Shown: positions 10,821 to 25,530 of the stretch, piece after piece
How the letters are laid out: each line of letters opens with the position of its first letter
Numbering within the stretch: the first letter of the stretch is position 1
Origin: a virus
Reading direction: 5' to 3' (one strand)
Virus record (IMG/VR): IMGVR_UViG_3300044858_005326
Span: 1-27,558 of that record
DNA: 27,558 nt
Position numbers and translations under genes: made by a program
The notes under the pieces: model-generated
Databases searched by the model: none
Seen by the model: the letters and a program-made list of their open reading frames with translations, nothing else
What the model was told of the DNA's origin: nothing

Positions 10821-11252
10821 ATGACCCGCTACCTCTGCACATCCACCACCGGCAACGAGCTGGAGCTGCGGTACAATGCCGATGGGCTGCTCATATTCAT
10901 GGAGCTGCGTGGCACGTTCACCGATGCGCAGTGGCTGTACGTTACGAGCCGGATAAGTATGCGTGCTGAAGATGGGCACATGAACGACCTGAAGGCCGTG
11001 CCCGGACTCACCGTCACCGAGGCACCGCTCACATTCACCTTTGATGATTTCTGGCAGGCATACCAGGAGAAGCGGAACAAGTTAAGGGCCGAGAAGCTCT
11101 GGGCGCGCCTGAGCGATGCCGACCGCATTGCCGCCATTGCCGCCATACCGAAGTACGACAAGTGGCTATCCTGGAAAGGTATTGCAAAAAAAGACCCCGA
11201 CACCTACCTCCGGAACAGATCCTGGGAGGACGAATACAAAATGAAAGGATGA
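10821..11252 (+). CDS. DnaT-like / replication-protein C-terminal domain protein
   Basis: A 143-residue protein. The second half (about residues 75-140) follows the pattern FWxxYxxK, a run of helices with KLWARLSDADRIAAIAAIPKY, and an ending PDTYLRNRSWEDEY, as in the C-terminal domain shared by DnaT-type primosome proteins and many phage replication proteins. The first half (CTSTTGNELELRYNADGLL) is beta-rich and not recognised. It could help load the host replisome during replicative transposition; this is inference from the family. Confidence 0.65.
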   Translation: MTRYLCTSTTGNELELRYNADGLLIFMELRGTFTDAQWLYVTSRISMRAEDGHMNDLKAVPGLTVTEAPLTFTFDDFWQAYQEKRNKLRAEKLWARLSDADRIAAIAAIPKYDKWLSWKGIAKKDPDTYLRNRSWEDEYKMKG

Positions 11253-11362
11253 GAAAACAGAGACCCACCCGCGAGCAGCGCATCATCGAGCACCTGGCCG
11301 TGGGTGCTGTGGTCATCATCGCATCATTCATTGCTAAAGGCATATACGAGTGGGTGTGGTGA
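11249..11362 (+). CDS. 37-residue single-span membrane protein
   Basis: A short frame coupled by ATGA to the previous gene: a basic N-terminus (MRKQRPTREQR), one hydrophobic helix (LAVGAVVIIASFIAKGIY) and an EWVW end. It fits a small inner-membrane peptide of unknown role. Its stop codon abuts the left attC-like site directly, so the insertion described next did not disrupt it. Confidence 0.55.
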   Translation: MRKQRPTREQRIIEHLAVGAVVIIASFIAKGIYEWVW

Positions 11363-11466
11363 TGGGCAACGTTTTCGGGCTTTGCGTTCGTTTTTTGCCT
11401 ACTCGAATGTTCAAAGTTAGCACCAATGTTAAAGGCAAAAAATGACGCAAAACCCGTGTTATGGGC
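11363..11466. repeat. Left attC-like hairpin site flanking a gene cassette
   Basis: Long imperfect inverted repeat: 11377-11399 pairs with 11434-11455 (about 19 matches with a small internal bulge) around a 34-base loop. Outer core-like boxes are TGGGCAAC (11363-11370) and GTTATGGGC (11458-11466). These two boxes do not pair well with each other, but each pairs with the outer box on the other side of the methyltransferase gene. That is the pattern expected after an integron-type cassette inserts at GTT. The boxes fit the classical RYYYAAC/GTTRRRY consensus only in their AAC and GTT cores. Confidence 0.65.
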
Positions 11467-12075
11467 AGTTGCGGTTTAATAACTAGAAAGTAAAAATGGA
11501 AATACAAACATCACTTTGGGAGAAGCCCGTTTTAGAAGCGGATATAGTTTATACACCGACTTATGTTAGTGAACACATTGTGCGTTGGCTAAACCCAAAA
11601 GGGAAATGCTTAGACCCGTGCAAAGGCGATGGAGCTTTTTATAATTATTTGCCTGAAGATAAAGACTATTGTGAAATACGAGATGGCAAAGACTTTTTTT
11701 TATACGAGGGCAAAGTAGATTGGGTAATTGGAAACCCACCATACAGCATATTTGAGGACTTCTTAAAAAAAGGCTTTGAGATTGCCGACAATGTAAGCTA
11801 CTTGGTGCCTACTAACAAGATATTTCAAAGGCAAATAATTATGGAAATGATTAACAAATACGGAGGGATAAAAAGCATAATCATTTACGGAAGCGGACAA
11901 TTGATAGATTTCCCTTTTGGGTTTTCGGTTGGCAACTTCCATTTTGAAAAAGGATATAAGGGCGAAACCAAAGTGTTAATGGGAATGAAGTCTATTTTTA
12001 GCACGTCAGGTAGCAATTGCCCATAACAAAGGGCTTAGCGCCAGTGCGAGGAACGAGCATTGCGCCAAGCCACTG
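11459..12075 (+). mobile_element. Integron-type gene cassette carrying a methyltransferase
   Basis: About 617 bases from the TT of the left GTT to the G of the right GTT. Its first bases (GTTATGGGC with the shared G) are the perfect reverse complement of GCCCATAAC at 12019-12027, so a circularised cassette would rebuild a fully paired attC. It holds a single gene in cassette orientation, starting 37 bases from the left edge and with its stop codon inside the attC box, as is usual in cassettes. It is AT-rich compared with the phage. No integrase gene is in the window, so mobilisation would need a host integron. Confidence 0.62.
11496..12026 (+). CDS. Cassette-borne N6-adenine DNA methyltransferase
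   Basis: A 176-residue protein with SAM-binding motif I (LDPCKGDGAFY, about residues 39-49) and catalytic motif IV NPPY (about 80-83), in the order seen in N6-adenine methyltransferases. A short THERE-type region follows (VSYLVPTNKIFQRQ) and there is no obvious separate target-recognition domain, so it is smaller than most free-standing enzymes. No restriction gene is beside it. The stop TAA (12024-12026) lies inside the attC box. DNA is AT-rich and codon use differs from all phage neighbours. Likely roles are protecting phage DNA from restriction or altering host methylation; target sequence unknown. Confidence 0.82.
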   Translation: MEIQTSLWEKPVLEADIVYTPTYVSEHIVRWLNPKGKCLDPCKGDGAFYNYLPEDKDYCEIRDGKDFFLYEGKVDWVIGNPPYSIFEDFLKKGFEIADNVSYLVPTNKIFQRQIIMEMINKYGGIKSIIIYGSGQLIDFPFGFSVGNFHFEKGYKGETKVLMGMKSIFSTSGSNCP

Positions 12076-12082
12076 TTGCCAA
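12019..12082. repeat. attC-like site of the cassette
   Basis: Imperfect inverted repeat: GGGCTTAGCGCCAGTG (12031-12046) pairs with CATTGCGCCAAGCC (12058-12071) across an 11-base loop, with unpaired bases in one arm as in attC sites. Outer boxes are GCCCATAAC (12019-12027) and GTTGCCAA (12075-12082). The first is the exact reverse complement of the cassette's left edge (GTTATGGGC). The second pairs 7 of 8 with TGGGCAAC at 11363-11370, which lies outside the cassette. Confidence 0.65.
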
Positions 12083-12108: not shown

Positions 12109-12432
12109 ATGAGCAAACCCACATCCATCACCATCAAGTGCGACCGGTTCAGGCTACAGCAGCTGCAAGCCGTATGTGCAGGCGTCAGCGAGGGCTGTGC
12201 CACCGCCTCAGCTGGCTTGGACCGGCTCATCGGCCTATCGGCCACCGACCTGAGCATTAAGATGGCTAAGAAGCTGTGCGAGCCGCGCAACAGCTACAAC
12301 CTGAAGCTGTCGGCCCGCGAGGCCGCTGCCCTCGAGGTGGCCCTGCTCATGGTCATAAAAGGCACCGAGGATCAGGTGGTCCTGATGGCCATGCGCCCGG
12401 TCGTTGCCCAGATACACCAGACCTACTGCTGA
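12109..12432 (+). CDS. Hypothetical early protein
   Basis: A 107-residue helical protein; it is the first phage gene after the cassette and returns to phage-like GC and codon use. The start ATG at 12109 is preferred to TTG at 12103. Recognisable features are limited to amphipathic helices (SAREAAALEVALLMVIKG, about 67-84). Its stop overlaps the next start (TGATG). The cassette sits between this gene and its probable former promoter, so its transcription now runs through 740 bases of inserted DNA. Confidence 0.62.
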   Translation: MSKPTSITIKCDRFRLQQLQAVCAGVSEGCATASAGLDRLIGLSATDLSIKMAKKLCEPRNSYNLKLSAREAAALEVALLMVIKGTEDQVVLMAMRPVVAQIHQTYC

Positions 12433-12872
12433 TGCCATACGCACCCACCATCCGCAGCCTCCATGCCCTGCTGGCCAAGCGCGGCCTGATGGACGAGAAG
12501 CGCGATATGATTCGCGAGGCCACACTGGGCCGCAGCGAGAGCGCCCGAGACCTCACCCCTGAAGAGCTGGCCGACCTGGTACAGGCGCTCAGCGCTGGTA
12601 TGCCCGAGGCACCGCGTAAAGGACAGCCGCAGGACCGCACCGAGGAGGCCCGCCAGCGCATGATACGCAGGCTCTACGCACAGGCCCGCGAGCTGGGCTG
12701 GGTGGTGCCCGATGGCAATGGCGGCACCAAGGTGGATGCGCCCAGGCTCAACAGGTGGGCCCTGCAATATGGCAGCGCTCACGTGCTGCCCGGCCGCTGC
12801 ACCAACGACCAGGTGCGCGACCTGGTGACACAGATGGACGTGATGATAAAAAGAACTTTGCAAAGGCATTGA
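12432..12872 (+). CDS. GemA-like (DUF1018-type) protein
   Basis: A 146-residue protein. The first half follows the GemA pattern: a short helix (IRSLHALLAKRGLMDE), a basic arginine-rich turn (REATLGRSESARDLTPEELADLVQAL) and a second half with MIRRLYAQARELGWV and a closing helix (NDQVRDLVTQMDVMIKRTL). In Mu, GemA modulates host gyrase-related gene expression; relatives sit at the end of the early region, as here. The similarity is by pattern, so other DUF1018-like functions are possible. Confidence 0.62.
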   Translation: MPYAPTIRSLHALLAKRGLMDEKRDMIREATLGRSESARDLTPEELADLVQALSAGMPEAPRKGQPQDRTEEARQRMIRRLYAQARELGWVVPDGNGGTKVDAPRLNRWALQYGSAHVLPGRCTNDQVRDLVTQMDVMIKRTLQRH

Positions 12873-24587: not shown

Positions 24588-25111
24588 GAAACCGCGCCCA
24601 GATACTCATCGCGCTCGCGCTGCTGGTAGCCGCCTCCGGATGTGGCCGTAAGGTCACGGAGGCGGTGACCCGGCAGTATGCCGGTAGCGATACGCTGCGC
24701 GTGGTGGAGACAGTGCGCGTTGACACTGTGACCGTGCCGGGCGAGACCATCACGGTAGAGGTGCCAGTGGCCGAAGGGTGTGACAGCCTGATGCAGCTCA
24801 TAGGAGCTCTCCAGGAGACGCAGCGCGCCCGGGTGAGCATCACCACAAGGCCGCGCACGGCAACAGCACCGGCCACGCTTGTGGTGCGTGCCGACTGCAA
24901 GGAGTATGAGGCACAGGTGCAGCGCCTTGAGCGCGAGACCGAGCGCCTGAAGAGCCAGACCGCGACCTCGGAGACCGTGACCACTGTGCGGGAGCAATAT
25001 GTGGCATGGTACCATAAATGGGCCATGTACTGGGCAGGTATCAGTGCCGCTTATGCGGTGGTGCGCATTGCCTGGTGGGCCGCTAAGAAGTACATCAACC
25101 CGTTAGCGTGA
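24584..25111 (+). CDS. Unimolecular spanin candidate (u-spanin)
   Basis: A 175-residue protein that starts with a lipoprotein signal (MRNRAQILIALALLVAASGC, lipobox cysteine at 20) and ends with a hydrophobic span (about 143-163, MYWAGISAAYAVVRIAWWAA) followed by a short basic cytoplasmic tail. A coiled coil lies between (QVQRLERETERLKSQTA, about 107-123). Outer-membrane lipid anchor plus inner-membrane span is the u-spanin architecture (as in T1 gp11) that fuses the two membranes. The GTG start overlaps the holin's stop (GTGA). No sequence homology is claimed. Confidence 0.68.
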   Translation: MRNRAQILIALALLVAASGCGRKVTEAVTRQYAGSDTLRVVETVRVDTVTVPGETITVEVPVAEGCDSLMQLIGALQETQRARVSITTRPRTATAPATLVVRADCKEYEAQVQRLERETERLKSQTATSETVTTVREQYVAWYHKWAMYWAGISAAYAVVRIAWWAAKKYINPLA

Positions 25112-25530
25112 TGAAGAGAGAAGAGCGAATCAGGCAGTGCATCGACCACTTCGGTGCCAATGCCGCCATCAGTGAGCTGCACGTGACCGAGGACGGTCAG
25201 GTGTTTGAGAGCCTGAACTACGCACTGGCGCACGCCAAGAGTGCCAAGCACAGCACCAAGCCGCAGGTGGTAGGTCGCGGTGATATTGATGCGCTGGAGG
25301 CAAAAGCCGCAAAGCCGCAGACGGCTGCCAAGGCCAAGGAGGAAGCCGCTGCCAAGGCAAAGGAGGAAGCCGCTGCCAAGGCAAAGGAGGAAGCCGCTGC
25401 CAAGGCAAAGGAGGAAGCTGAGGCTGCTGCCAAGGCAAAGGAGGAAGCTGAGGCTGCTGCCAAGGCAAAGGAGGAAGCTGAGGCTGCTGCCAAGGCAAAG
25501 GAGTCTAAAGAACCTGCAAACGCCAAGTAA
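25111..25530 (+). CDS. Coiled-coil Ala/Lys/Glu repeat protein
   Basis: A 139-residue protein. The first 50 residues form a small domain (RIRQCIDHFGANAAISELHV, then DGQVFESLNYALAHAK) similar to small proteins preceding the sheath in Bacteroidota phages. The second half is a tandem array of AAKAKEEA and AAKAKEEAEA units, likely one long helix. The TGATG overlap with the spanin places the start at 25111 rather than the GTG at 25108. It might be a tail-related chaperone; no family name is given. Confidence 0.7.
   Translation: MKREERIRQCIDHFGANAAISELHVTEDGQVFESLNYALAHAKSAKHSTKPQVVGRGDIDALEAKAAKPQTAAKAKEEAAAKAKEEAAAKAKEEAAAKAKEEAEAAAKAKEEAEAAAKAKEEAEAAAKAKESKEPANAK
25324..25506 (+). repeat. In-frame coding tandem repeats of 24 and 30 bases
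   Basis: Three 24-base units (25324-25347, 25348-25371, 25372-25395) are followed by three 30-base units (25396-25425, 25426-25455, 25456-25485) and a partial copy. Both periods are multiples of three, keeping the frame open. Neighbouring copies are almost identical at the DNA level, so the array is young and its copy number probably varies. Confidence 0.9.

Follow-up and report, generated by a model that had tools for sequence, protein, structure and literature searches.

A reversed methyltransferase cassette in a Mu-like phage and a proposed integron-like system of Bacteroidia

A small methyltransferase gene framed by two hairpins raises the question of whether a Mu-like phage carries a mobile gene cassette, which of the hairpins travels with the gene, and what kind of recombination system could have moved it. 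The gene lies in the window, the whole stretch of DNA analysed here, which is a virus record of 27,558 bases. The original prediction was an integron-type cassette inside a Mu-like phage; this is supported, except that the hairpin carried by the cassette is the left one. The reading preferred here, and considered very probable, is that positions 11368-12027 form a mobile cassette that belongs to an integron-like system in Bacteroidia, in which a recombinase without the additional domain of IntI would act and phages would hold reversed anti-defence cassettes.

The cassette, its boxes and its borders

The window represents a Mu-like transposable phage, as predicted, and its gene set includes a DDE transposase, a MuB-like ATPase, GemA, a Mu F-like protein, portal, terminase and head genes and a contractile-tail sheath. 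The methyltransferase gene sits between a small gene (11249-11362) and orf12109/gemA. Its segment is AT-rich, as had been noted (37% GC vs about 60%), and its product matches Pfam N6_Mtase (2e-4) and the DNA methyltransferase family phrog_799 (4e-26). Neither an integrase gene nor a tRNA was found in the window. Another open reading frame (25108-25530), between the head and tail-sheath genes, consists mostly of AAAKAKEEAE-type repeats. The features of the locus are as follows.

11249-11362, plus strand: small phage gene, read from sequence, ending directly 5' of the left junction
11363-11370, plus strand: box TGGGCAAC at the left junction, of which TGGGC belongs to the phage flank; 7/8 bases of the box pair with 12075-12082 on the far side of the cassette
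11363-11466, minus strand: attC-type site of the cassette, whose top strand is the minus strand; fold z -3.3
11368-12027, plus strand: proposed mobile cassette as inserted (attC hairpin, box, methyltransferase gene, box), with AAC at both ends
11458-11466, plus strand: box GTTATGGGC at the junction of hairpin and gene; exact reverse complement of 12019-12027
11496-12026, plus strand: N6-type DNA methyltransferase gene (176 aa), opposite in direction to the attC
12019-12027, plus strand: box GCCCATAAC, right end of the cassette and mate of 11458-11466; right limit of the block shared with contig L013
12028-12082, minus strand: second, weaker attC-like hairpin in the phage flank, with box GTTGCCAA; fold z -0.7 to -1.2
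12432-12872, plus strand: GemA-like phage gene that follows the cassette (Pfam GemA 9e-6)

The predicted pairings were confirmed. Boxes GTTATGGGC and GCCCATAAC are exact reverse complements, with pairing that reaches 10 bases (GTTATGGGCA); TGGGCAAC and GTTGCCAA pair at 7 of 8 positions; and the stop codon of the methyltransferase gene falls inside the right box. The departure from the classical RYYYAAC/GTTRRRY consensus was also correctly seen, and lies at position 5 of GTTATGGGC and GCCCATAAC, the AAC/GTT core being kept. On the minus strand the left attC reads GCCCATAAC-A-CGGGTTTTGCG...CGCAAAGCCCG-AAAAC-GTTGCCCA, so that its spacers are asymmetric (1 nt and 5 nt). When folding was compared with dinucleotide shuffles, the expectation of hairpins held for the left site on both strands (z -3.1 to -3.3) and failed for the right site alone (z -0.7 to -1.2), whose best fold is on the minus strand. 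Copies of the window made with a first-order Markov model gave 0.08 cassettes per window (a 9-base box pair plus a stem of this polarity), and 0.01 at the observed stem length. Boxes and hairpins are beyond chance.

The borders of the unit were set by comparison with L013, an IMG/VR contig from an unrelated phage. The block common to both is exactly 11368-12027, from AAC to AAC, with 644 of 662 bases identical over 11366-12027 (97%), and only 9 of 40 flanking bases agree on each side. Because the shared block stops at 11368 and 12027, it is the left hairpin that accompanies the gene, not the right; the methyltransferase gene therefore points against the direction of its attC. The predicted borders (11459-12075) are thus replaced by 11368-12027, and the gene, contrary to what had been proposed, does not face the correct way. 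As inserted, the cassette has borders at G|TT and complementary outer boxes with a hairpin between them. Similar units occur in arrays in L013, in L002 (a Lacibacter prophage) and in L011; each array opens with a hairpin, its last unit ends in AAC without one, and every gene has a separate box pair around it (GTTAGTACC/GGTACTAAC, GTTATAAGCA/TGCTTATAAC and so on).

The quasi-symmetrical geometry of the locus could also be read as a canonical cassette in which the gene, in the usual direction, is joined to the right hairpin (11459-12075); the minus-strand fold of the right hairpin and the 7/8 pairing across the cassette would suit such an arrangement. It is nevertheless very unlikely, since L013 has the left hairpin and the gene without the right hairpin, the final right ends of the L011, L013 and L002 arrays have no hairpin, and arm identity and spacer polarity place the attC on the left. 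The right hairpin (12028-12082), which is absent from L013 and has no CGTT end of the kind typical of other sites, is likely the insertion site, either an older attC or an attG-like G|TT target.

Copies of the methyltransferase are 95-97% identical in L002 (95%) and L013. It had been foreseen that related phages with the gene but without paired sites would speak against a cassette; among the best-matching relatives paired boxes were found in four (L002, L003, L005 and L013), and they are present also in the more distant L011 (68%), but not in some more distant relatives such as L006-L009. No published phage matched the window cassette at the DNA level, and methyltransferase relatives there are below 60% identity. 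Searches for the exact joined flanks of the window and of L013 gave zero matches to an empty site. The 80 loci of transposase relatives yielded no clean empty site either, the high-scoring ones having no cassette except isolated matches at chance level (L079, L040 and L057), and a GemA-based search for related phages found none.

In two different Mu-like phages the methyltransferase cassette occupies the same variable region (L002/L015 1010-2180; window 11368-12027), flanked in both by a homologue of orf10821 and a GemA-like gene. The Lacibacter copy has an additional second cassette, and its attC differs from that of the window.

This shared position before GemA would be compatible with hairpins that are transcription terminators or generic repeats, the gene having moved by homologous or illegitimate recombination, and hairpins can indeed terminate transcription. 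That explanation is extremely unlikely in view of the 9-10 base box pairing specific to each cassette, the head-to-tail arrays, the exact borders with unrelated flanks, the low chance expectation, and an Rfam scan in which no family fitted the hairpins and only sub-threshold chance matches appeared.

Cassette arrays in chromosomes and viral contigs

Generic repeats are further contradicted by the chromosomes of Bacteroidia, whose cassette arrays contain matching arms. The arms of the left hairpin of the window are identical to those of chromosomal attCs in L168 (4430-4566) and L159 (4688-4823); the L168 site reads GCCCATAACACGGGTTTTGCGTCA...CGAACGCAAAGCCCGAAACCGTT, and box GTTATGGGC is common to L168 and the window. 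Such arrays lie in canonical orientation downstream of many Chitinophagaceae recombinases that match the IntI model except in its middle part. A 19-base attC arm pattern (CGCAAAGCCCGAAANCGTT) was found in 56 of 395 Bacteroidia genomes, with 0 for the reversed-pattern control, and in 64 viral contigs, for the most part within arrays; one or more complete cassettes are present in 54 of these contigs, and two or more in 38. The window has one strong and one weak attC site; several sites are present in L011, L177, L200, L219 and others.

Gaps between chained boxes were picked blind to folding and compared with random stretches. A stem was present in 71/98 viral gaps (36/933 in the controls) and in 31/42 chromosomal gaps (18/404), numbers in which both strands are counted, so that the independent numbers are about half. 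The bottom strand gave the better fold in 76 of 95 viral and 30 of 44 chromosomal attCs. Bulges and T-G/A-C pairs are present in the stems, but away from the canonical positions. A set of 59 distinct arm pairs shows every one of the four Watson-Crick types at most positions, which is weak evidence taken alone because the sites were selected for pairing. In the same 59 sites, stem position 4 has a recurrent C-C mismatch and position 5 a recurrent T-G pair, which is A-C on the opposite strand. The mismatch and the T-G pair can be read as a strand mark, with a role comparable to that of extrahelical bases.

The direction of the genes separates the two groups of arrays. Among nonredundant cassettes with an unambiguous longest open reading frame, 75 viral genes are reversed relative to the attC and 5 are forward; in chromosomes 1 is reversed and 50 are forward (Fisher P=3e-29). 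Viral cassette genes are co-directional with the flanking genes in 31 of 37 cases. The methyltransferase of Polaribacter phage P12002L (L297, 29237-30011), which is framed by boxes, is also reversed relative to an attC-like site. Exchange between phages is suggested by several cassettes that are present complete in further viral contigs whose flanks are unrelated on either side; one of them is a 785-base unit, 100% identical between L180 and L198. Phage genes accompany the arrays in G707 (portal, terminase, DnaB), G713 and G689 (portal), L011 (terminase) and the window.

The 42 chromosomal cassette proteins are varied, with TIR and AGS_C domains among them. In the 52 viral cassette proteins (set A2), 9 matches to N6/N4 methylases and 2 to C5 methylases were obtained, and the remaining matches include Mom, Dam, MT-A70, the Thoeris inhibitor Tad3 and an RNA ligase. 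A Tad3-like Thoeris inhibitor in one phage cassette and a Mom-like modification protein in another suggest that the uncharacterised neighbours in these arrays may be anti-defence genes. The N6 methyltransferase of the window probably protects phage DNA from restriction.

The array-linked recombinase and its attI-like sites

A search of Chitinophagaceae (296 genomes) with the integron-integrase model TIGR02249 found a true IntI above the cut-off in one genome of 296 (L115/L148, in G181:C24), and this copy is interrupted by a stop codon. Weak matches occurred in 292 of the 296 genomes because the model also picks up Xer-type recombinases. Two continuous but weak matches (L146 and L147), which have no cassette array, were dropped as candidates.

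The cut-off was missed by all seven recombinases scanned. In the patch III/I2 region, IntI1 has 125 residues, compared with 83-90 in all 41 other aligned recombinases. VchIntIA (2A3V) is the top PDB match, but the alignment skips about 40 residues; the core is matched by NF040815 and by Xer models. The array-linked recombinases form a clade apart from the XerC/XerD of the genome and from IntI1, with moderate support (83/79). In their host members the N-terminus is extended by about 100 aa, and this extension may stand in place of the missing IntI domain for hairpin recognition. A WSxxxxxW-type motif is shared by the extensions of L172, L161, L168, L167 and L152. The extension is weakly HARP-like (best 1e-4, below the cut-off), and a HARP identity was rejected because the similarity is too weak to claim. 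The extension is absent from phage recombinases, which may form a branch apart from the host ones.

The additional domain has been stated to be defining and necessary for IntI (PMC9668308, PMC7790495). Because a defining domain is absent, the recombinase falls outside the integron-integrase family as defined; it appears to work like an integron integrase all the same. In six loci (L152, L161, L167, L168, L169, L172) the first box lies 49-287 nt after the stop codon of the recombinase gene, and in L259 and L273 the heads of the arrays are divergent or codirectional. Arrays are present at only part of the recombinase loci, many contigs ending there. Lacibacter luteus has both a prophage with the 95% methyltransferase cassette and a recombinase that is sister to that of L168 (100/100). 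In L260 (9700-11053), a cassette contains a recombinase gene of the array-linked kind, so that the integrase, too, may be carried from place to place in cassettes.

An attI-like motif, given as ATTTATGNGTT and ATTTATGNG|TT, precedes the first box after four related recombinases; ATTTATGNGTT is expected 0.002 times per 400 nt. The Lacibacter luteus recombinase has the same motif as the L168 group, and no motif common to recombinase flanks was found in other subclades. Two viral contigs, L191 and L219, contain complete platforms, each with a recombinase of 277-278 aa head-to-head with the array, an attI-like GAATACATATA..G|TT, and a reversed array. The phage status of these two contigs is less certain, and G716 (L219) has methyltransferase and exonuclease matches and no structural gene. 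A tyrosine recombinase was absent from 31 of 36 viral records tested, which include 2 Mu-like phages without arrays, and from six further viral array contigs. Most viral array contigs would therefore depend on the host.

The same cassettes could instead be moved by the ordinary IntI of other bacteria, the Bacteroidia recombinases being bystanders. The Bacteroidota phage P12002L, with its reversed methyltransferase at 29237-30011, has one attC that works with IntI1 (PMC9892861), which implies some overlap with classical integrons, and IntI is present in rare Bacteroidetes (PMC9024848). This possibility is unlikely, since the only true IntI in the 296 Chitinophagaceae genomes is broken, a non-IntI recombinase heads arrays in independent genomes and in two viral contigs, and one recombinase subclade has a conserved attI-like motif. 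The array-linked recombinase is therefore the preferred candidate, in agreement with the earlier guess of a related but different recombination system.

Proposed mechanism and relation to known systems

In the proposed mechanism, a tyrosine recombinase without the IntI additional domain would come from the host; a few viral contigs also encode such an enzyme. The recombinase would act on the folded bottom strand of the attC, here the coding strand of the phage gene, as a single-strand hairpin. The cut would fall at AA|C (G|TT on the other strand) and release the cassette as a circle, for which attI, another attC and a plain G|TT are the proposed targets. Reversal would let the cassette gene and phage transcription run together, and may have arisen in phages from this co-transcription, the polarity of the attC presumably being fixed by replication or by the platform. 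Reversed cassettes would then provide Bacteroidota phages with an exchangeable stock of anti-defence genes.

A broader reading, towards which we lean with reserve, is that Bacteroidia have a second kind of integron, with hairpin attCs and no I2 domain, and that phages maintain a separate pool of reversed cassettes as an anti-defence library. Taken together and with the same reserve, the system in this reading either arose independently or survives as an intermediate from integron evolution, and some phages encode their own integrase and attI.

In Bacteroidetes, integrons are thought to be near absent, and a complete integron has been reported only for Salinibacter (PMC9024848). How single-strand recombination arose in integrases is an open question, with no intermediates known (PMC7790495); widespread arrays with a domain-less recombinase make this origin testable. 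The results also suggest that phages exchange anti-restriction genes by site-specific recombination and not by chance mosaicism. Since TIR and CBASS-like defence domains are encoded in the chromosomal cassettes sampled, both sides may be supplied by a single system. No account of this integrase class, of a system across Bacteroidota or of phage-specific reversal was found in a search of open PMC papers.

Compared with the IntI-attI-attC system of integrons, the present one is alike in the G|TT opening, the imperfect hairpin with complementary outer boxes, the better-folding bottom strand, and arrays in head-to-tail order that adjoin a tyrosine recombinase and an attI-like site. It differs in the absence of the IntI additional domain, in boxes off the RYYYAAC/GTTRRRY consensus (GTTATGGGC), in sites that are long (about 120 nt), have 1/5 nt spacers and end in CGTT, and in the reversed genes of phage cassettes. 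Integron cassettes can also be inserted at secondary sites, called attG. Such sites are mentioned in PMC12901181, and the phage arrays at plain G|TT targets without attI are similar, although here the targets belong to phage genomes and an enzyme other than IntI is probably at work. The recombinases share with XerA, XerC and XerD a catalytic domain and the lack of the IntI insertion; unlike these, they adjoin cassette arrays, form a clade separate from XerC/XerD, and in host members have the long N-terminal extension.

Integron parts in phages are not new, contrary to what the original prediction had supposed. Phage-borne CALINs, elements with at least two attC sites and no integrase, have been published, that of P12002L included, and were interpreted as strays from classical integrons (Qi et al. 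2023, PMC9892861). They resemble the present cassettes in being flanked by attC, in having no integrase and in often encoding methyltransferases. The present arrays differ from them in belonging to a Bacteroidia-wide system with its own candidate integrase, in consistent reversal, in two complete viral platforms, and in the presence of the same cassettes in different phage contigs with unrelated flanks.
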